Source: Vampirovibrionales bacterium
GTDB taxonomy: Bacteria; Cyanobacteriota; Vampirovibrionia; Vampirovibrionales; Vampirovibrionaceae
Assembly: GCA_029866025.1 (NCBI GenBank)
Contig: JARXAD010000003.1
Span: 62,001 to 126,000 of the forward strand
Length of the DNA: 64,000 nt
Direction of reading: 5' to 3'
The notes below the pieces were generated by a model. The model saw nothing but the letters and a program-made list of their open reading frames with translations, was not told the origin of the DNA and searched no databases. Both the position numbers and the translations under genes were made by a program. This document shows, piece by piece, positions 15,844 to 51,135 of the stretch. Numbering within the stretch: the first letter of the stretch is position 1; each line of letters begins with the position of its first letter.

Positions 15844-16191
15844 ATGGGTTTTGCTGCGAGTACCGCGCGGCTTCTCATGCTTACTGCGCGAAAGTCTGAC
15901 CTCGAACTTCGGGTTCAGATGATCAACCAGATGCGGATGTACTGGAGCGATGTCACATCAATGATGATGATGGCAGCCGCGGCGGATCCCAGTGCATTCA
16001 AGCCAGGAGAAGAAAAAGCGATTCAATTGGAGGCACGACGTGCCTACGTTTCGCAAATGGAAAAAATGCTAGAAATGGACGGCAAGAAAGCGGATGCTCA
16101 ATTAGCGGCCATTGAAAGTGAAATGCAGGCTGTTACCAAACATGTGACAGATAATGCCAAAAGCTTTGGCGGCTTAAATGCCCGTGGCTAA
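15844..16191 (+). CDS. hypothetical protein, MGxAAS...LMLTARKSDLE family
   Basis: 115 aa ORF; N-terminal MGFAASTARLLMLTARKSDLELRVQMINQMRM. Confidence 0.7.
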   Translation: MGFAASTARLLMLTARKSDLELRVQMINQMRMYWSDVTSMMMMAAAADPSAFKPGEEKAIQLEARRAYVSQMEKMLEMDGKKADAQLAAIESEMQAVTKHVTDNAKSFGGLNARG

Positions 16192-16225
16192 AGGTACTAT
16201 CTAATCATTGGGTAACATCTTAAGT

Positions 16226-16535
16226 ATTACGGGACGAGACTGACCAGAGCGAGTGACGGAAACCCCTGGCAACGGCTATGGTGCGCAACGCCATAACGGT
16301 GACAGAAGGGCTGCGGCATTGCTTCGAATAGAGTGAGACAGAGGCACCAAAAAATTACGGGACGAGACTGACCAGAGCGAGTGACGGAGAACCCTGGCAA
16401 CGGCTATGGTGCGCAACACCATAACGGTGATAGAAGGGCTGCGGCATTGCTTCGAATAGAGTGAGCCAGAGACACCAAAAATTACGGGACGAGACTGACC
16501 AGAGCGAGTGACACACACCCCTAGCAACGGCTATG
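16226..16535. repeat. tandem ~128-bp repeat, about 2.4 copies
   Basis: ATTACGGGACGAGACTGACCAGAGCGAGTGAC starts at 16226, 16354 and 16481. Confidence 0.95.
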
Positions 16536-16837: not shown

Positions 16838-17278
16838 ATGAGTAGTGTGAACAATAGCTACAGCAATTATTCGTATGATTTTAACAAAGTCCACGAATCG
16901 TTGGATAAAAACAAAGATGGCTATGTTAACAAGAGCGAAATTCAAGTGTATCAAAATCGCTTGGCCAACAATAATAGTAACAGTGGAAAAAAGGCTAAAA
17001 GTTTTTTGGTGGATTTGCTTAATAATTTTGATCGAGTGAATTCATTATCAGACGTAACTCCAATACATTATGAGAATACCTATATATTGACGGGATTAGA
17101 GCAAAATGACCCACAAGATGTTGCACGCGGTATTACGTTGTTGGATTTTAATAGATTAGCCAAAGGATCCGACGGTCAGTATGATGCGAGTGGTGGAAAC
17201 CTAAGAATAGAGAAACTTGATTTTTCAACCGCACTATCTTTATCCGAATTTTATAGAAAATACCCGCCACCACCATAA
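16838..17278 (+). CDS. EF-hand-like protein, tandem copy 1
   Basis: MSSVNNSYSNYSYDFNKVHESLDKNKDGYVNKSEIQVYQ; C-terminal YPPPP. Confidence 0.8.
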   Translation: MSSVNNSYSNYSYDFNKVHESLDKNKDGYVNKSEIQVYQNRLANNNSNSGKKAKSFLVDLLNNFDRVNSLSDVTPIHYENTYILTGLEQNDPQDVARGITLLDFNRLAKGSDGQYDASGGNLRIEKLDFSTALSLSEFYRKYPPPP

Positions 17279-17342
17279 TTAAGGGTCTGCAAGCTTTAAT
17301 TTATTAATATTTATATATAATGCACAAAAGAGAGATTAAGAG

Positions 17343-17810
17343 ATGAGTAGTATTAACAATAGCTACAGCAGTTATTCGTATGACTTCAACAAAGTCCATA
17401 AAGCCTTAGATAAAGATAAGAATGGCTACTTGACTGAAAATGAAGTGAAAGCTTACAAACAAAAATTAGCCAATAAAAATACTGCTTCGGCCAAAAAAGC
17501 AACGCATTTTTTAACTGGGCTATTAAACAACTACGCTTCAGTAAAATCTTTGTATGATGGAGCTCTCGCTCCGCAAGGAATTCCTTATAATGACGCACAA
17601 TTAGAAGAGCAAAAGCAGATTAAACAGAAGGAAGCTTTAGGTGTGTCAATAAACGACTTTGCCAGATTAGCGAACATAAATGCTACCTATTCTATGAATA
17701 CTCTCTACTCATCAGGTGGAGTACCAACCTTCAATAATTATACGTTTGATAATTTGCAATCTAAAATTGATGAGTCAAACCGAAAAGTACTTGAATACCC
17801 ACCACCTTAA
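17343..17810 (+). CDS. EF-hand-like protein, tandem copy 2
   Basis: MSSINNSYSSYSYDFNKVHKALDKDKNGYLTENEVKAYKQK; C-terminal YPPP. Confidence 0.8.
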   Translation: MSSINNSYSSYSYDFNKVHKALDKDKNGYLTENEVKAYKQKLANKNTASAKKATHFLTGLLNNYASVKSLYDGALAPQGIPYNDAQLEEQKQIKQKEALGVSINDFARLANINATYSMNTLYSSGGVPTFNNYTFDNLQSKIDESNRKVLEYPPP

Positions 17811-17878
17811 TTAATTGTTAGTCTGCAAGCATTCATTTATCACTATTTTATAGTAAATCACAAAAGAGAGATTAAGAG

Positions 17879-18242
17879 ATGAGTAGTATTAACAATAGCT
17901 ACAGCAGTTATTCGTATGACTTCAACAAAGTCCACGAATCGTTGGATAAAGATAAGAATGGTTATGTTGATCAGGCTGAAATCAAATAGCGGTAAAAAGG
18001 CCAAGGCCTTGCTCAGTGATTTACTCGCTAATTATGACAAAGTAAAAGGCCTTCATGGACCTGCTTGGGGAATGAGACCTTCCGAAGAAACTATGCAGCA
18101 AGCCGATGCGAAAGAAAAGCTAGGTATTAGTATTATGGACATAGGACAATTAGCCTCTGGCTACGGTAACAAAGATCGTCTCGAACGGCTGGATTTTTCT
18201 AATATGAAAAACTACTATGATGAGCATGGATACCCACCTTAA
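17879..18242 (+). pseudogene. EF-hand-like protein, tandem copy 3, frameshifted by internal deletion
   Basis: MSSINNSYSSYSYDFNKVHESLDKDKNGYVDQAEIK* stops at 17989; the other frame continues NSGKKAKALLSDLLANYDKVKGL...GYPP*. Confidence 0.8.
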
Positions 18243-43512: not shown

Positions 43513-44460
43513 ATGAAAAAAAGAGGACGTCCAGCCAAGGCCACGCCGAAAAAACCCGTCAAAAACGATTCTACGAAGCCCGTAGAGCCACCAAAAGAAA
43601 CCATCCTAACCCTTGACACGGTAGCCGAGCATTTTTCGGAAAATATGCCCAAGGTTGAACCCTATGTGATGGCCTTGGCCAACCCAACCGAAGCGGAAAA
43701 CCCGCCCACCGTCACACAGCCTGACGAAACAACGCCGCCACTAGCGGATAGTAAAAAACCGGTAATTGGGCCAATCAATCAGTACGACTATAAAGACCGT
43801 TACAAGCGGCCTTTTAGCCCTGCCATTCATGAAACCAACCCCGATGGCTCCCCCAATTTAACCCGCAATGGCAATTTAAGACTAAAGGCCATTAAAACCC
43901 CCGGCGCGGAACGCTTGCAAGCCCACGCCATTGGAGCCAAGCCCCCAGAGGTGCAGATTGCCGAAAAAGAACAGGCAGTAGCCAAGCTGGAAGCGGAAAA
44001 GAAAGCCATTGCGGCGGCGGAGTCACTCCAACAAACAAAAAATTGTGCCTTCATGGCGGTAATGAGCTTTACCGGTGTTGCCCAAGGGATTTTTGGGGAC
44101 GAGTGGAAACCCGGTGAATCTGAAATGGACATGCTCACCCAGTCCACAACGGATTATTTTCACGCCCAAGGCATTACCGACATCACCCCCGGATGGGCTT
44201 TGGTGTTAGGCATTGGGGCCTATGCCTTGCCACGCCTAACGATGCCGAAAACAAAGGCGAAAATTGAAGGGGCCATTAAGGCCGTGATGGGGCCACCTAC
44301 CCCAAAGCCAACCAAGCTGCATTTGGTGCCTGACGCTCAAAACCAGCCCATCCCAACACGAGAGCAATTTGAAGCCGCCCAAAAGGCAGCAGCGGAAGCC
44401 ACAACGCCACCAGAAGAACCCAAAGAGCGTCACGGCTGGCTAGGGACGGGCGAGGTATAA
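43513..44460 (+). CDS. provirus: Pro/Lys-rich membrane-associated protein upstream of ATPase
   Basis: 315 aa, KKRGRPAKATPKKP N-terminus; hydrophobic TPGWALVLGIGAYALP; overlaps no other plausible gene. Confidence 0.75.
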   Translation: MKKRGRPAKATPKKPVKNDSTKPVEPPKETILTLDTVAEHFSENMPKVEPYVMALANPTEAENPPTVTQPDETTPPLADSKKPVIGPINQYDYKDRYKRPFSPAIHETNPDGSPNLTRNGNLRLKAIKTPGAERLQAHAIGAKPPEVQIAEKEQAVAKLEAEKKAIAAAESLQQTKNCAFMAVMSFTGVAQGIFGDEWKPGESEMDMLTQSTTDYFHAQGITDITPGWALVLGIGAYALPRLTMPKTKAKIEGAIKAVMGPPTPKPTKLHLVPDAQNQPIPTREQFEAAQKAAAEATTPPEEPKERHGWLGTGEV

Positions 44461-44462
44461 CC

Positions 44463-44969
44463 ATGATAGCAGGGCATAGCCTAGTTGCGGGGCGCAGCGG
44501 CTTTGGCAAAACAACCCTTGTAAAGGGATTGGCTCAGCGCTTTAGCGATGGGGGAACCCCTGTATTGGTACTCACCACCTTTCCGCAAGACTCATGGCCA
44601 GCGGACTATATTACGGATAACCCCGAAGAATTTATTGAAAAAGTATTCTTCCATACCGGATGCTTTGTTGTTGTGGATGAGGGAGGAGAATTTGCGGGGC
44701 AATACAATAAAACAATGAGCAAGCTGGCCACCCGTGGACGACATAATGGCCATATTTGTGTATTTATTGCCCAAAGAGCCACAATGATCAACGTCAATAT
44801 ACGGGCCAATTGTAACAATCTGTTCATTTTTAAAAGCTGTGTGGATGACTGCAAGATTTTAGCCAATGATTTTGCGGTATCCGATTTAACCGGTGCGTCA
44901 AACCTAGAGCCGGGCAAGTGTATTGCTGTCATTGGTAGCCAAGAGCCTCAGTTGATGAGGGTTTTTTAG
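44463..44969 (+). CDS. provirus: FtsK/HerA-type genome-packaging ATPase
   Basis: Walker A GRSGFGKTTL, Walker B CFVVVDEGGEF, then TRGRHNGHICVFIAQRATMINVNIRANCNNLFIFKS. Confidence 0.88.
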   Translation: MIAGHSLVAGRSGFGKTTLVKGLAQRFSDGGTPVLVLTTFPQDSWPADYITDNPEEFIEKVFFHTGCFVVVDEGGEFAGQYNKTMSKLATRGRHNGHICVFIAQRATMINVNIRANCNNLFIFKSCVDDCKILANDFAVSDLTGASNLEPGKCIAVIGSQEPQLMRVF

Positions 44970-45063
44970 GGGTATTGACACGCTTCAAAGAGGACGTGGT
45001 ACAAGTTTATTAACGTCTGATAACGTTATTTTTTTGCCGCATTATCCAGAGAGAGGAAACCCC

Positions 45064-45144
45064 ATGCTCAAACAGATCGCAATTGGAGCTGCCGCCACCG
45101 TGGCCGGTATGTTCTTGTACCAACAATTCTTTAACCGGGCCTAG
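45064..45144 (+). CDS. provirus: 26-aa membrane peptide
   Basis: MLKQIAIGAAATVAGMFLYQQFFNRA after GAGAGAGGAAACCCC leader; below ORF-track size cutoff. Confidence 0.65.
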   Translation: MLKQIAIGAAATVAGMFLYQQFFNRA

Positions 45145-45150
45145 TCATTC

Positions 45151-45294
45151 GTGGCTAAGCAATTCTTTGTGACGCTTGCCGCCATTTTGGCTGCCGGATG
45201 CCTTTTAAACGCTGCCACCCGTGGCACGTTTGGGGGTGCGGTGGCCAATGCGGCAAAATTCGCTGCCGATGGCTACGATACCGACAAAGTGTAA
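45151..45294 (+). CDS. provirus: 47-aa membrane protein (GTG start)
   Basis: VAKQFFVTLAAILAAGCLLNAATRGTFGGAVANAAKFAADGYDTDKV; below ORF-track cutoff. Confidence 0.6.
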   Translation: MAKQFFVTLAAILAAGCLLNAATRGTFGGAVANAAKFAADGYDTDKV

Positions 45295-45368
45295 CGGTTA
45301 GCTGTTTTTCCTATTTTTTGTAACGTCTAACAAGATCCGGCGCACCGGATAGAGAGAGGATTTTCCCC

Positions 45369-46259
45369 ATGGCTGCCAACCCCGTTTTAGCTCCTGCCAT
45401 TTTCCCCATGTTCCAACGTAAATACGCTGGATTTGAGGCCATTCAATCCAATGGTGTGGCCACTTGCCGCGTCCCTACCACGGGTCGCCACTACGCCCAC
45501 CGCTTGCATTTTAAAACCTCCGCTGGTGCAAACCTTACCCAAGCCGAGATTGAATCCCAAGTCACCCTAATCAAAGTAAAAATTAACGGCGTCACCACCC
45601 ACGAAGCGCCCCCCGCCGTGTTCCATATGCTGCAAAAGTATTATGGCGATGCCAAAGGGGCCACCATCGTTCCGGGCGTGTTGCTGATTGACTATTGCCG
45701 CCGCCACCTGACCTTGCCCGCCGAGCGAAAACAGATGGCTTTGGGTATGCAAGGCGTGGACACCTTCACCATTGAGTGTTACACCGGCACCCTAAGCAAT
45801 TTGGCGGTGATTGACTTCAATGCCAGCATTGAAAACGTGGAAAGCCCATTGGGGCCTCACTATCGCCTGTTGTCCAACCCTCAGTACAAAAACACTACCG
45901 GCGAACACCAGATCAGCGACCTTCCCAAGGCTCCCAATGCCGCATTGCTGGCCTACCATATTTCCTTGGGTTCCGTTCCGGGCGTACTCAGTGAAGTATC
46001 CCTCATTGCGGATAACGTCAATTTGTTTGAGCGCCAAGCCCCTACCGTTACCCAGCAAGTGTTGGAAGATGCGGGGCGTAACCCTCAATCCGGTTACTAC
46101 CATATTGACTTCAACCTCAATAACGAGGTGTTGGGCCTGTTCCCGTGGACGCAAAACAAGCGCACGGTACAAGATTGGCGCTTAACTCCCAACTGGAGTA
46201 CCGCCCCCAACGACTTCAAGGTGTACACCGAGCAAGTTTTCAACATGCCGCAGCTGTAG
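45369..46259 (+). CDS. provirus: major capsid protein, PM2 P2-like double jelly roll
   Basis: 296 aa directly after ATPase and small membrane ORFs; collinear motifs MALGMQGVDTFTIECYTG, HQISDLPKAPNAALLAYHISLG, YYHIDFNLNNEVLGLFPW. Confidence 0.8.
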   Translation: MAANPVLAPAIFPMFQRKYAGFEAIQSNGVATCRVPTTGRHYAHRLHFKTSAGANLTQAEIESQVTLIKVKINGVTTHEAPPAVFHMLQKYYGDAKGATIVPGVLLIDYCRRHLTLPAERKQMALGMQGVDTFTIECYTGTLSNLAVIDFNASIENVESPLGPHYRLLSNPQYKNTTGEHQISDLPKAPNAALLAYHISLGSVPGVLSEVSLIADNVNLFERQAPTVTQQVLEDAGRNPQSGYYHIDFNLNNEVLGLFPWTQNKRTVQDWRLTPNWSTAPNDFKVYTEQVFNMPQL

Positions 46260-46273
46260 AAAGGCGGTGAACC

Positions 46274-46675
46274 GTGGGCATTTTCGATTCACTCAAAAGT
46301 GTATCGGGTAAGGTCCAGTCCATCGTCAAAAGCGGCTCCGATACCGTAAAAACAGTTCGCCACACTGCAAGCGATTTGGTCACCGATGCGGGCAATGCAG
46401 CCCGCAACGTTGGCTATTACGCCCAAAATTTTGGCTCTGTTATTACCAACATTGGCAGCGGTGTACGACGGGTTGGCAACCAAGCCAATGGCACAGCGGC
46501 GGTATTAAAAAACGACGCCTTGTTTAAAGCTGCCGAAATAGTAGGCGACCAAACCACCTTTACGGGCAATGCCAACGTGCGCCCTAGCGGCAACACCGAT
46601 GGCACGGATTGGTTTGTAATCGCGGCGTGGGGTGTGGGGGCTGTGGCCACCTATGCCTTGCTCAAAAAGATGTAG
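46274..46675 (+). CDS. provirus: tail-anchored virion membrane protein candidate
   Basis: C-terminal TM WFVIAAWGVGAVATYALLKKM. Confidence 0.75.
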   Translation: MGIFDSLKSVSGKVQSIVKSGSDTVKTVRHTASDLVTDAGNAARNVGYYAQNFGSVITNIGSGVRRVGNQANGTAAVLKNDALFKAAEIVGDQTTFTGNANVRPSGNTDGTDWFVIAAWGVGAVATYALLKKM

Positions 46676-46687
46676 GAGAGCCGCACT

Positions 46688-47281
46688 ATGGGTTATGTAA
46701 TGCAAGCAGGCGCATCTGTGGACGCCTATGAGTTGACGGGGCCACCGTCTAACAACAATAGCGGCGGCAACCCTTACGCCTACAGTGACCCGTATGTGTT
46801 TTATACCCCGGTAAGCCAGCGGCCCGCCACCCGCCCGCTGCAGCAATACAACGCGCAAAAAGACCCCATGAGCAATAGCTATATGGGCGGCGGCTGGGAG
46901 GATGACCCCAGCATTTTTAGCAATGGCCTGTTGGGTGCGTTGCGCCCCTTTGATTTTGTTCCGGACAATGGTTGGTACGATCCCCAGCTGGATGACATTG
47001 CCGCCACGGATCCCTATAGCAATTTAAGCCCCAACCCTCCCAATCCTAAAGACAACGACTTGGAGAAAGCCAAGGAAGCCGCCAAAAAAGCAGCGGCCAA
47101 CGGTGGCAATGGCACCAATGGGGGTAATGGGTCAGGCAATCCCCAGCAACCCCAACCATTTGGCGGAACGCCCGATACCGAAGGCGAGCCCCGCCCTTGG
47201 TGGCATTGGGCCGCTTTACTGGGTGGCGGTGGCTTGGCGGTGTGGTACCTCACCAAGAAAAAGAAAAAAGGGAAGGGGTAG
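46688..47281 (+). CDS. provirus: tail-anchored, Gly/Asn/Pro-rich protein
   Basis: C-terminal WWHWAALLGGGGLAVWYLTKKKKKGKG. Confidence 0.75.
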   Translation: MGYVMQAGASVDAYELTGPPSNNNSGGNPYAYSDPYVFYTPVSQRPATRPLQQYNAQKDPMSNSYMGGGWEDDPSIFSNGLLGALRPFDFVPDNGWYDPQLDDIAATDPYSNLSPNPPNPKDNDLEKAKEAAKKAAANGGNGTNGGNGSGNPQQPQPFGGTPDTEGEPRPWWHWAALLGGGGLAVWYLTKKKKKGKG

Positions 47282-47284
47282 CCG

Positions 47285-47602
47285 GTGGCCAGTGGAAACG
47301 CTGTAGGAGTCGATCAGGCCAATTTTGGCCTAGATTTAACCGCCCCCGCCGAAAGCGGAGCCCGCTCACAAAGCAGTCAAGCGGGTGTGGTGGCTCCTTT
47401 TGGTGCGTTTAATGTTACAGGCGGCGGTAAGTTCTCCAGCCTCAATAGCAGTACCAGCGGCGGTTGGGGCATTCGTCCCATGGCTATCGATGCGGCCACC
47501 ACCCCCGGCGCAGCCGTTAAGCCCTCGTTTTTTTCCGATCCGTTCAACGTTACCCTTTTGGCGCTAGGAGGTGTGGGCCTATGGCTACTCCTCAAAAAAT
47601 AG
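47285..47602 (+). CDS. provirus: tail-anchored small protein (GTG start)
   Basis: C-terminal FNVTLLALGGVGLWLLLKK; 3 bp after previous stop. Confidence 0.7.
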   Translation: MASGNAVGVDQANFGLDLTAPAESGARSQSSQAGVVAPFGAFNVTGGGKFSSLNSSTSGGWGIRPMAIDAATTPGAAVKPSFFSDPFNVTLLALGGVGLWLLLKK

Positions 47603-48015
47603 CAACCCCCGCCGCCCGTTTAGTACAGTGGAGCCCCACGGTGGCGGAGCATTTGGGCCAGTATTTAACGCCACAACAATTAAACGGCGTGTTTTATGAT
47701 TGGTACGGCAACCGGGTTGCCCTGTGGGGCCTGTTTAGTGGCAATACCCATGTGGGCACCTTGGCTACCCGCATTGATGTGATGCTGGATAAAACCCGCC
47801 ACTGGGTGTTTGTTCATGCGGGCGGTAAGTGGATTGAACAATTAAAAGACCTTCAATCGTACTTTGAGGGCGTGGCTCACCACCACCATTGCCACGCCTT
47901 GCGGCTGGATTTGGGAAGCGGACACATTGCCCGCATTGCCCGCGAGCGCTTGCGGGGCTTTACCACCTATGAAGTCTCCATTGTGTGCCCTTTAACCAAA
48001 AGGGGGGCATCATGA
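47581..48015 (+). CDS. provirus: hypothetical protein
   Basis: 144 aa ORF in tightly packed operon. Confidence 0.7.
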   Translation: MATPQKIATPAARLVQWSPTVAEHLGQYLTPQQLNGVFYDWYGNRVALWGLFSGNTHVGTLATRIDVMLDKTRHWVFVHAGGKWIEQLKDLQSYFEGVAHHHHCHALRLDLGSGHIARIARERLRGFTTYEVSIVCPLTKRGAS

Positions 48016-48353
48016 GTGGCGGAAAGTCTAACAGTAAAAGCACCAGCACCACCACAACCACCACCCAACAAACAGACGAGCGTGTGGCGGCAACGGATAT
48101 GGGCGTGGCCATTGGTGCCAATGCCAATGTTAGCGGCCTTACCATCCAGCAATTGCCGGAAGAATTGGGGCCCATTGCTAACAAGCTACTGGATACCCAA
48201 GAGATGCTTATTAACATTGCATCCCAAGCGAGCGAAAAGGCCATTACTCAAACAGAAGACGCCCAAGCCGATAGCGCCAAGAACGTCCAGCGCCTTGTTT
48301 TAATCGGCGTGGTGGCCGTTGTGGTTATCGTCATTGCATTAAGGAAGAAGTAA
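48012..48353 (+). CDS. provirus: tail-anchored protein
   Basis: MSGGKSNSKSTSTTTTTTQQ...LVLIGVVAVVVIVIALRKK; ATG at 48012 preferred over 47985. Confidence 0.7.
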   Translation: MSGGKSNSKSTSTTTTTTQQTDERVAATDMGVAIGANANVSGLTIQQLPEELGPIANKLLDTQEMLINIASQASEKAITQTEDAQADSAKNVQRLVLIGVVAVVVIVIALRKK

Positions 48354-48357
48354 CACC

Positions 48358-48960
48358 ATGAATAACTCAGCAGATACCGCCAGCAAACAGGCTTACCAAG
48401 AAATATCCTTCACCCTTGCCGCCTCCCAAAGCGTGGTCTACAACATTAATGGCCGTAGCCTTTCCATTGATACCATCAGCGGTAGCGGCCTCACCATGAG
48501 CGTTGACGATGGCAGCTTCTCCACTGTCCAGCAAGGAAGCGGCTTTGAGTTGCCAGAGGGGGAGGAGTTCCGCAAGGTTTCCTTTAACAATACCAGCGCT
48601 TCTAGCGTTACCATTACCCTTGCCGTAAGCCGCAGCAAGCTATCCACCCGCGTTAGCCTTTCCGGAAGCGTAAGCGTGACCAGCGGGGCCACCCCCACCA
48701 CCCCAGCCGTTGTAACAGCCGCCACCGCTGCAACGGTATTGGTGGCTGCAAGTACTAGCCGCCGTTCTGTAATGGTTCAAAACCTACACGGTAGCGATAA
48801 TTTGTGGGTAGGCAATGCCAACGTGGGCAATGATGCGGGCCCCCGTGGCTTGCGAGTGCCCCCCGGCGGTAGCTTAAGCCTTGCCACGGGCGGGGCCCTA
48901 TGGTGCCGCCGTGGCGGTGCCAATGATATTACGGTAGGCGTGTTGGAGATTGCTCAATAA
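48358..48960 (+). CDS. provirus: beta-rich vertex/penton-like candidate
   Basis: 200 aa, repeated short beta-type segments (FTLAASQSVVYNINGRSLSIDTISGSGLTMSVDDGS...); structural inference. Confidence 0.6.
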   Translation: MNNSADTASKQAYQEISFTLAASQSVVYNINGRSLSIDTISGSGLTMSVDDGSFSTVQQGSGFELPEGEEFRKVSFNNTSASSVTITLAVSRSKLSTRVSLSGSVSVTSGATPTTPAVVTAATAATVLVAASTSRRSVMVQNLHGSDNLWVGNANVGNDAGPRGLRVPPGGSLSLATGGALWCRRGGANDITVGVLEIAQ

Positions 48961-49439
48961 TGATGAACGCATTAAGCCAACCCAATAACTTGGCCATTGC
49001 CATTATTAGTGACCAAAAAGCCTTGGGAAGCCACGGGGGAACCTTTACTTCCGCCGCTTGGCGTACCCGCGATCTGAATACCGAGGTAACAGACACCGCC
49101 GGCCTTGTTACCGTGGCATCCAACCAGTTCACCCTACAACCGGGCCGGTACTTAATTGAAGCCAGCGCCCCTGCCTATGGATGCAATACCCATAAAACAC
49201 GATTACAAAACATAACGGACGCTACCACCGTAGCTACTGGCACCACCGAACACGCCAACCCTACCTATGGTGTACAAAACCGTAGTTTTTGCGACGCCGT
49301 AGTAACGCTAACGGCTTCTAAAACCTTTGAGTTACAGCATTGGTGTAGCACCACAAGTTCAACCTTTGGCCTTGGCTATGTGGTGGCCAGCACCAACGGC
49401 GTGGAAACATTCGCCACCATTCGCATTACCCGATTGTAA
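48960..49439 (+). CDS. provirus: C1q/TNF-like receptor-binding spike candidate
   Basis: FTLQPGRYLIEASAPAYGCNTHKTRLQNITDATTVATGTTEHA...KTFELQHWCSTTSSTFGLGYVV..ETFATIRITRL. Confidence 0.7.
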   Translation: MMNALSQPNNLAIAIISDQKALGSHGGTFTSAAWRTRDLNTEVTDTAGLVTVASNQFTLQPGRYLIEASAPAYGCNTHKTRLQNITDATTVATGTTEHANPTYGVQNRSFCDAVVTLTASKTFELQHWCSTTSSTFGLGYVVASTNGVETFATIRITRL

Positions 49440-49507
49440 TTTACTCGAGTCTCTCCATTTTTAAAACCCTGTCCCCGTCTATGTTTCATTGAAAGGAAAC
49501 CCACAAA

Positions 49508-49978
49508 ATGAGTAACGTTGATCTCGCCCTTGCCTTAGAAACCCTCTTACCGGGTGCCCAGTACGGTGGCAGCTTAACCCCTAACACCCCCGAAGCCTAT
49601 GGCGCCATTATTTGGGATGATAAACGCCCAAAGCCCGGCATTGAAGAATTGCTTGCCGTGGTTGTTCCGGAGAAAAAAGAAGCGATTTTGGCCAAGGCCC
49701 ATGCCTTGTTTACCAGCTTGCCGCTGGAGCTTCAAGAAGCTTACCAGACGCCCGTCAATAACTTTCTTATTGCCTCACAAAATGGTAACGAGCCTCTCGC
49801 CCTCCGCAACCTAAAAGCCATTCAACCGCTGGAGCCTGCCCATGCCCCCATTCTCGCTCAATTTGCGTCCCTATTTGGGTTGGATATTGTTGCGCCGGTG
49901 GATAGCACCGTGGGCCCCGTGGATGCTGGCTTAGACGCCCTACTGGACGCACAAGCGGGGACGCCTTTTAGTGGATAA
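49508..49978 (+). CDS. provirus: hypothetical protein
   Basis: 156 aa; GAIIWDDKRPKPGIEELLAVVV motif like that in phage fibre-associated proteins. Confidence 0.6.
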   Translation: MSNVDLALALETLLPGAQYGGSLTPNTPEAYGAIIWDDKRPKPGIEELLAVVVPEKKEAILAKAHALFTSLPLELQEAYQTPVNNFLIASQNGNEPLALRNLKAIQPLEPAHAPILAQFASLFGLDIVAPVDSTVGPVDAGLDALLDAQAGTPFSG

Positions 49979-50264
49979 GAAGGCCAGCATAGCCCTTGCC
50001 GCCGCCGCCTGCCTGTTGTTATGGCTGGCCTACAGTGGCACACAAAAGGCCGTAAACAACGGCCCCCCGCCCGTGCCGTTAGGAGACCCCGGCGGCTTGG
50101 GGGGCTTTGGCGATTATTTTAACGTGTTTGGGTGGTCTGCCAACGATGGCCAAGGCAAGCAAACCACCCCGCCCAAGTTTAAGTACACCGTAAACGAGCC
50201 CATACGCGCCGGTATTAGTTACTACGATGACCACGGCGAAGGCTGTGCCGATTGTGGAGGGTAA
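49971..50264 (+). CDS. provirus: N-terminally anchored small protein (GTG start)
   Basis: KKASIALAAAACLLLWLAYS; 8-bp overlap with previous gene. Confidence 0.6.
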   Translation: MDKKASIALAAAACLLLWLAYSGTQKAVNNGPPPVPLGDPGGLGGFGDYFNVFGWSANDGQGKQTTPPKFKYTVNEPIRAGISYYDDHGEGCADCGG

Positions 50265-50268
50265 GCCT

Positions 50269-51135
50269 ATGATTTTTGCCGCATTGGCCGCCATTGTGGG
50301 CGGTATTTTTGGTTGGAGCCAAACCAAGGTTGGCAAAGCCAATGCCGCTGCCAATGATTTGGTGGGCGATGTGCGCGGCTTTAATTACGATCCCCCGCAA
50401 GACATTAACAACCTGTTAAAGGCCTACCCTGCCTCGGTTCCGCCGCCACCCCCCTTGCCCAATTTAACCCGTTTAAGCAGCATTTTTACAACCGCCGATC
50501 CGTTCTCAGTCTCCACCGTTGCAGGAGGAAAAGTAGTGCCACAACCCCTTACCCCAACCGGTAGCCAAAGCAATTCCGGGGGCTTTACGGGTGCCTTAAG
50601 CCCCGAAGCGGCCCAAGCCGCCGCCGCCCGTGGTGACGTGCGCTTTATGCAGCAACCCATGAGCCGGTATTTTTACTGGAGCGATGCGTTTACAAGCCAG
50701 CAGGCCACCGCTGCCGCCATTAAAAAAACGCCCCTTTCCATTTTTAGGGCTGCCGCTCAAACCGCTGCCAAGCTGGATGCGGTGAATGATTACCTATCGG
50801 CCAAAGCCAACAAACGGGTGCAAATAGTGGTGAAAGGCCACAGCTTTATACGGTATGCCCCTGTTTCTACCGTGGGCGGAACCGCCACCAAAAGCCCCCA
50901 TATGCAAGGCAAGGCGGTTGATTTTCATGTGGCAGGTTATGCCGACGTGAGAGGAAACCAGCGGATACAAGCGTGGCTGATGCAGAACCGTAAAGGGTTG
51001 GGAATTGGAATAGAAAAAACCAATCAAAGTTACAGCCATATTGATTTAGGCGGTGTGCGCGTTTTCGATAACGTAACGGGCTATCCACTGTTAAGCGATG
51101 CCGCCATTAACAACTTTATTGCCAATTACAAATAG
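50269..51135 (+). CDS. provirus: M15-family peptidase (murein endopeptidase/endolysin-like), membrane-anchored
   Basis: SPHMQGKAVDFHVAGYADVRG...YSHIDLGGVRVF (SxHxxGxAxD...HxD metal site); N-terminal TM MIFAALAAIVGGIFGW. Confidence 0.85.
   Translation: MIFAALAAIVGGIFGWSQTKVGKANAAANDLVGDVRGFNYDPPQDINNLLKAYPASVPPPPPLPNLTRLSSIFTTADPFSVSTVAGGKVVPQPLTPTGSQSNSGGFTGALSPEAAQAAAARGDVRFMQQPMSRYFYWSDAFTSQQATAAAIKKTPLSIFRAAAQTAAKLDAVNDYLSAKANKRVQIVVKGHSFIRYAPVSTVGGTATKSPHMQGKAVDFHVAGYADVRGNQRIQAWLMQNRKGLGIGIEKTNQSYSHIDLGGVRVFDNVTGYPLLSDAAINNFIANYK

Follow-up and report, generated by a model that had tools for sequence, protein, structure and literature searches.

The closest described systems to the proteins considered here are the EF-hand superfamily (Pfam PF13499, PF00036, PF13202 and PF13405), the XopAW family of type III secretion calcium-binding effectors (NF041410), NopE/MIIA with its Ca2+-inducible autocleavage domain (DUF1521) and, for some members of the wider family, the plesiocin-type graspetides, in which the plesiocin pattern is TTxxxxEE. 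Tandem copies and gene conversion are seldom seen in the EF-hand modules of bacteria. The stretch of 64,000 nucleotides from a Vampirovibrionales bacterium that we analysed (the window; its own genome is G000, and relatives carry other G numbers) holds three such genes in an array, which represents the lineage-specific expansion of a module of EF-hand type unnamed in the libraries used.

The array proteins score under every gathering cut-off of the superfamily, the best Pfam EF-hand scores being 19.1 bits where 30 are required and 18.5 where 25.4 are required, with a best E of 0.0014, and none of the curated families reached its cut-off for them. At the same time, some relatives' proteins pass a Pfam EF-hand cut-off (27.1 against 25 in G003). 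Membership of the type I dockerins, with their two 22-residue F-hand repeats, was rejected: the dockerin search gave no array match at E<=1 and one weak match (E 0.059) to the copy on C3 of the own genome. The XopAW profile matched weakly over the EF-hand region, with E of 0.015 for copy 2, 0.07 for copy 1 and 5e-4 for a two-module protein of G002; membership was rejected, the array proteins reaching 12.9 and 15.1 bits (matches overall 13-20) against a cut-off of 120. As for NopE/MIIA, a DUF1521/VWD domain is joined to the module in G002, and our working model for the array supposes Ca2+-dependent folding of an exported protein; unlike NopE/MIIA, the array proteins lack DUF1521, and we propose no autocleavage for them.

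Re-reading of the open reading frames placed the array where the original prediction had put it (Table 1). Copies 1 and 2 have 46% identity along their full length, far beyond chance, which bears out their description as tandem paralogues, and the common N-terminus, EF-hand-like loop and YPP(PP) ends that had been noticed are present in all three copies. The G+C content of the array is 36%, compared with 50% for the window.

Table 1. Coordinates of the array, its parts and related loci (window positions unless a contig or locus is named).
Feature	Position	Strand	Details
Copy 1	16838..17278	+	intact ORF, 146 aa, C-terminus KYPPPP; module profile E 6e-29
Canonical EF-hand loop, copy 1	16904..16939	+	DKNKDGYVNKSE; Pfam EF-hand_7 E 0.0017, below cut-off
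Copy 2	17343..17810	+	intact ORF, 155 aa, C-terminus EYPPP; module profile E 4e-30
Canonical EF-hand loop, copy 2	17409..17444	+	DKDKNGYLTENE; Pfam EF-hand_1 E 0.0014, below cut-off
Copy 3, whole	17879-18242	+	broken; ends GYPP
Copy 3, 5' part	17879..17989	+	36 codons to TAG 17987-17989; MSS...AEIK*
Copy 3, 3' part	17985..18242	+	+1 frame, NSGKKAKALL...GYPP; 35-nt gap in alignment; corresponds to the module's C-terminal part, profile positions 95-159, E 9e-17
76-nt block, copy 2	17323..17398	+	leader and first 56 nt of CDS; equals 17859-17934 of copy 3
76-nt block, copy 3	17859..17934	+	equals copy 2 block; downstream bases alternate copy-1-like/copy-2-like
Spacer 1-2	17279..17342	+	resembles spacer 2-3 (17811-17878); repeat family D1 and alignment
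Upstream neighbour, ARKSDLE protein	15844..16191	+	115 aa; ~6 paralogues per genome
TTxALxEEGGG module protein and ligase loci	L141:6862-9679 (G005:C3); L139:6216-8241 (G003:C23)		putative graspetide precursors, unusual in size
FlhA, own genome	G000:C2:331111; C6:31981
FliP, own genome	C9:429477; C3:96741

Each array protein corresponds to one module of ~100 aa, composed, as its sequence reads, of a canonical EF-hand and two degenerate EF-like hairpins. The module profile was built from the array proteins, dispersed proteins of the own genome and proteins of relatives, the dispersed copies on G000:C9, C3 and C5 having made its construction possible. It gives the order as EF1 (DxDxDGxh..xE), a helix with NF/NY..V.SL, the motif G[IV][ST]..DF..LA and a loop ending in [IL]..xDF. 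The EF-hand-like loop of the original prediction turned out to be a canonical 12-residue loop, DxDxDGxhxxxE, present once in each protein (DKNKDGYVNKSE, DKDKNGYLTENE and DKDKNGYVDQAE). In place of paired hands 2 and 3 there are conserved hairpin motifs, degenerate by the standard of the superfamily, the third loop being of a 13-residue type and the second carrying an insertion. What had been called a variable middle is thus variable in one respect, the hypervariable length of this insertion in the loop of the second hairpin, but otherwise the profile reveals conserved motifs with fixed anchors there. A short Tyr/Pro tail ends the protein. AlphaFold models made from four window sequences predicted helices flanking the first loop, with low to moderate confidence, and a long helix after EF1; the pLDDT values of 61 and 56 are poor, and the remainder, including the two hairpins, is uncertain. 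A Foldseek search of the PDB with the model of pLDDT 61 returned no match below 0.001, the top match being an EF-hand protein at E 0.8. The array proteins are probable Ca2+ binders.

Local duplication and sequence exchange gave rise to the three genes. A shared leader had been reported for all of them; we find CACAAAAGAGAGATTAAGAGATG exactly before copies 2 and 3, but copy 1 has GATTAAGAGATG only. A block of 76 nucleotides (20 of leader and 56 of coding sequence) is the same in copies 2 and 3, synonymous positions included; in their bodies identity stands at ~45%. Over the next 60 nt, copy 3 equals copy 1 at CDS offsets 56-65 and copy 2 at 72-78, and at offsets 86-102 it mostly equals copy 1; such alternation is what gene conversion or unequal exchange leaves behind. 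Considering both the identity and the mosaic bases, the common leader was at least in part copied recently, and its conservation as a signal need not be assumed. The likeness between the two spacers indicates that the duplicated unit takes in intergenic DNA. Synonymous sites are saturated among the array copies. Gene conversion is the process that the 5' end of the array clearly points to, the bodies meanwhile diverging; the copies were born by tandem duplication, and conversion is homogenising their 5' ends.

Copy 3 is decayed, as had been noted: aligned as DNA with copies 1 and 2, it has a 35-nt out-of-frame gap which includes part of the exit helix of the first EF-hand, and beyond the TAG the homologous frame is taken up again and runs without a stop through 85 codons to GYPP*. 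The copy was lost through this 35-nt deletion. A programmed frameshift is not favoured, because the gap takes out 35 nt that both other copies have, and sequencing error is unlikely to account for a gap of this length.

The module profile matched 10/10 family genomes at E<=0.05 and eight of them at E<=3e-16 (weakest G001, 3e-8). Across the class, remoter matches were found in 89/289 genomes at E<=1e-3, many of them generic EF-hands. The profile was required for this, single-protein searches of the relatives giving weak matches only. A scan of wider genome contigs returned only a generic EF-hand match in a Clostridiaceae MAG, and the plasmids and viral contigs searched held no relatives of the array proteins, so that there is no evidence for carriage by mobile elements. 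As to the further copies that had been envisaged, no other exact AGAGATTAAGAGATG was found in the genome, but dispersed copies of the module were. In the module tree the array copies form one group (97/85), which is joined by the C9 and C3 copies of the own genome (95/79); the tree resolves this grouping and not the deeper branches.

This bacterial module had no name before; relatives have it as a single copy, as tandem copies or fused to other domains. In G004-G009 (genera g5 and g6) one homologue of ~163-183 aa stands out, and in the regions read it lies between FeoB and ComF (G004, G005, G006, G007 and G009); a like gene occupies the same place in G003 (genus g4). These homologues are single-copy and none ends in YPPP, the very observation by which the original prediction was to be refuted; YPPP is therefore not ancestral as a signal. 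Pro-rich tails do recur in other module members. A second tandem pair is present in the own genome (L133:8748-9698, G000:C1; ORFs of 133 and 134 aa), and in a tandem pair of G005 the first copy is interrupted by an in-frame TAG, so that tandem birth and death is a recurrent event in the family. Single proteins of G002, G003 and G005 contain 2-3 modules. In G002 there are proteins of two and three modules with Pro-rich linkers, and one protein (L135:3336-4952, G002:C36) joins two modules to a domain that passes the cut-offs of VWD (28.3 against 22.9 bits) as well as DUF1521 (24.4 against 23.6 bits).

We infer what the module does from sequence features. The reading that we prefer, at a probability of roughly 40%, is that the array encodes a Ca2+-binding module of proteins acting outside the cytoplasm, locally expanded by birth-and-death duplication. 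Secretion is plausible on indirect grounds, namely the array N-termini without a Sec-type hydrophobic stretch, the VWD/DUF1521 fusion and the presence of two export gates. Two FlhA and two FliP occur in 9/9 family genomes searched, and the second FliP-FliQ-FliR set of the own genome lies at ~C3:95-97 kb; this second type-III-type gate may belong to a flagellum or to an injectisome. Export of the proteins would need no Sec signal and would most likely go through such a gate; flexible in the low-Ca2+ cytosol, they would fold once they bind Ca2+ outside the cell, and there the variable loop and the Pro-rich tail might touch a partner such as matrix, prey or host surface. N-termini of the family are rich in S/N/Y/P/Q/G/T/F relative to 353 background proteins drawn from the loci read (p 1e-5), an enrichment that is descriptive only, since the residue set was picked after inspection. 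Counting against export, the FeoB-ComF homologues mostly do not have an S/N/Y-rich N-terminus, and the VWD/DUF1521 fusion is known from a single protein of a different genus. Both export gates may be flagellar, and no EF-hand genes lie directly beside them in the loci read.

If exported and folding on Ca2+, the array proteins are candidate cell-surface or interaction proteins. Vampirovibrio, a probable relative, preys on algae, and a conjugative T4SS has been proposed as its delivery system (PMC4451040). Export through a T4SS was rejected for the array, PF03135 (VirB4) being found only in G004 and not in the own genome.

The absence of a Sec signal from the array N-termini would also fit proteins that stay inside as cytosolic Ca2+ buffers or sensors, calmodulin/calerythrin-like, with the Tyr/Pro tail docking an internal partner. 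This is conceivable but doubtful. The best sequence matches among solved structures are cytosolic EF-hand proteins, in the EF1 region only, and the relatives' homologue adjoins the housekeeping genes FeoB and ComF, both of which suit a cytosolic role; on the other hand, each array protein has one canonical loop only, the family diverges fast and has lost one copy here, and its members in relatives include fusions to VWD/DUF1521 and to graspetide-like motifs.

We consider it unlikely that the array is a selfish or near-neutral local amplification, an AT-rich lineage-specific family with little selected function. The low G+C given above, the break in copy 3 and the further tandem pairs, one with an in-frame stop, are what such an amplification would leave, and G001 points the same way: it has the block response regulator-Hpt-ARKSDLE in common with the window, and no EF-hand array follows it there. 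Yet the frames of copies 1 and 2 are still open and the module's anchor residues still in place although the two proteins have diverged by 54%, a distance at which unselected frames would be expected to be broken. The ARKSDLE protein of this block (~110 aa, starting MGxxAS.AR..MLTARKSDLE, with no Pfam match) occurs as ~6 paralogues per genome in 9 family genomes, so its nearness to the array may be chance. Between it and the array lies a 128-bp tandem repeat of 2.5 copies (window 16222-16535), unique in the genome and with no Rfam match or unusual fold.

A wider reading would make the module a mobile domain that exported proteins employ as carrier or sensor and that recurs singly, in arrays, in repeats, in VWD/DUF1521 fusions and in graspetide-like precursors, with the array diversifying locally and its hypervariable loop meeting prey or host; we regard it as distinctly unlikely. 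The module profile does link many uncharacterised proteins, two of them RiPP-precursor-like. These are two-module proteins of G003 and G005 with TTxALxEEGGG motifs, adjoining MvdC-like ATP-grasp ligases (MvdC/GRASP_SAV_5884-like, E 2e-46 in G005 and 3e-47 in G003). By analogy with the plesiocin-type graspetides, with which they share the TTxALxEEGG motif and a neighbouring ligase, the motifs would be graspetide cores and the proteins are possible graspetide precursors. A published graspetide survey leaves EF hands unmentioned (PMC8939145). It is highly improbable that the family as such supplies precursors or carriers for peptides modified by ATP-grasp enzymes, with the EF-hand module in the part of leader or carrier and the array as a derived branch: the loci of G003 and G005 speak for it, as does a related ligase in the own genome, but these ligases score under their NCBIfam cut-offs, no ORF of the window has the core motif, and no ATP-grasp ligase lies near the array. 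The own-genome ligase, of the MvdC/GRASP_SAV_5884 type, lies directly after one FlhA and close to a contig end (L105:3060-3989, G000:C6).

Finally, it is scarcely credible that the conserved YPP(PP)-stop end acts in translation, through proline-dependent stalling when the ribosome terminates, instead of serving as a binding tail. In favour of this, Pro-Pro stalls ribosomes (PMC8129111), C-terminal residues influence termination and tmRNA tagging (PMC7246954, PMC2998420), and PP-ending ORFs number 2/353 in the background (one of them copy 2 itself); against it, larger proteins of G002, G001 and G014 have longer Pro-rich stretches after the module, at internal positions where no termination occurs.

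Elsewhere in the window, positions 43513-51135 are likely a provirus of a tailless virus. The ORFs of this putative provirus include one that resembles a packaging ATPase (phrog_2666, E 1e-13), one that resembles an endolysin (50227-51135) and one that resembles a capsid protein (45369-46259), the last being 25% identical to the double-jelly-roll capsid of Vibrio phage 1.249.A (E 1e-3).
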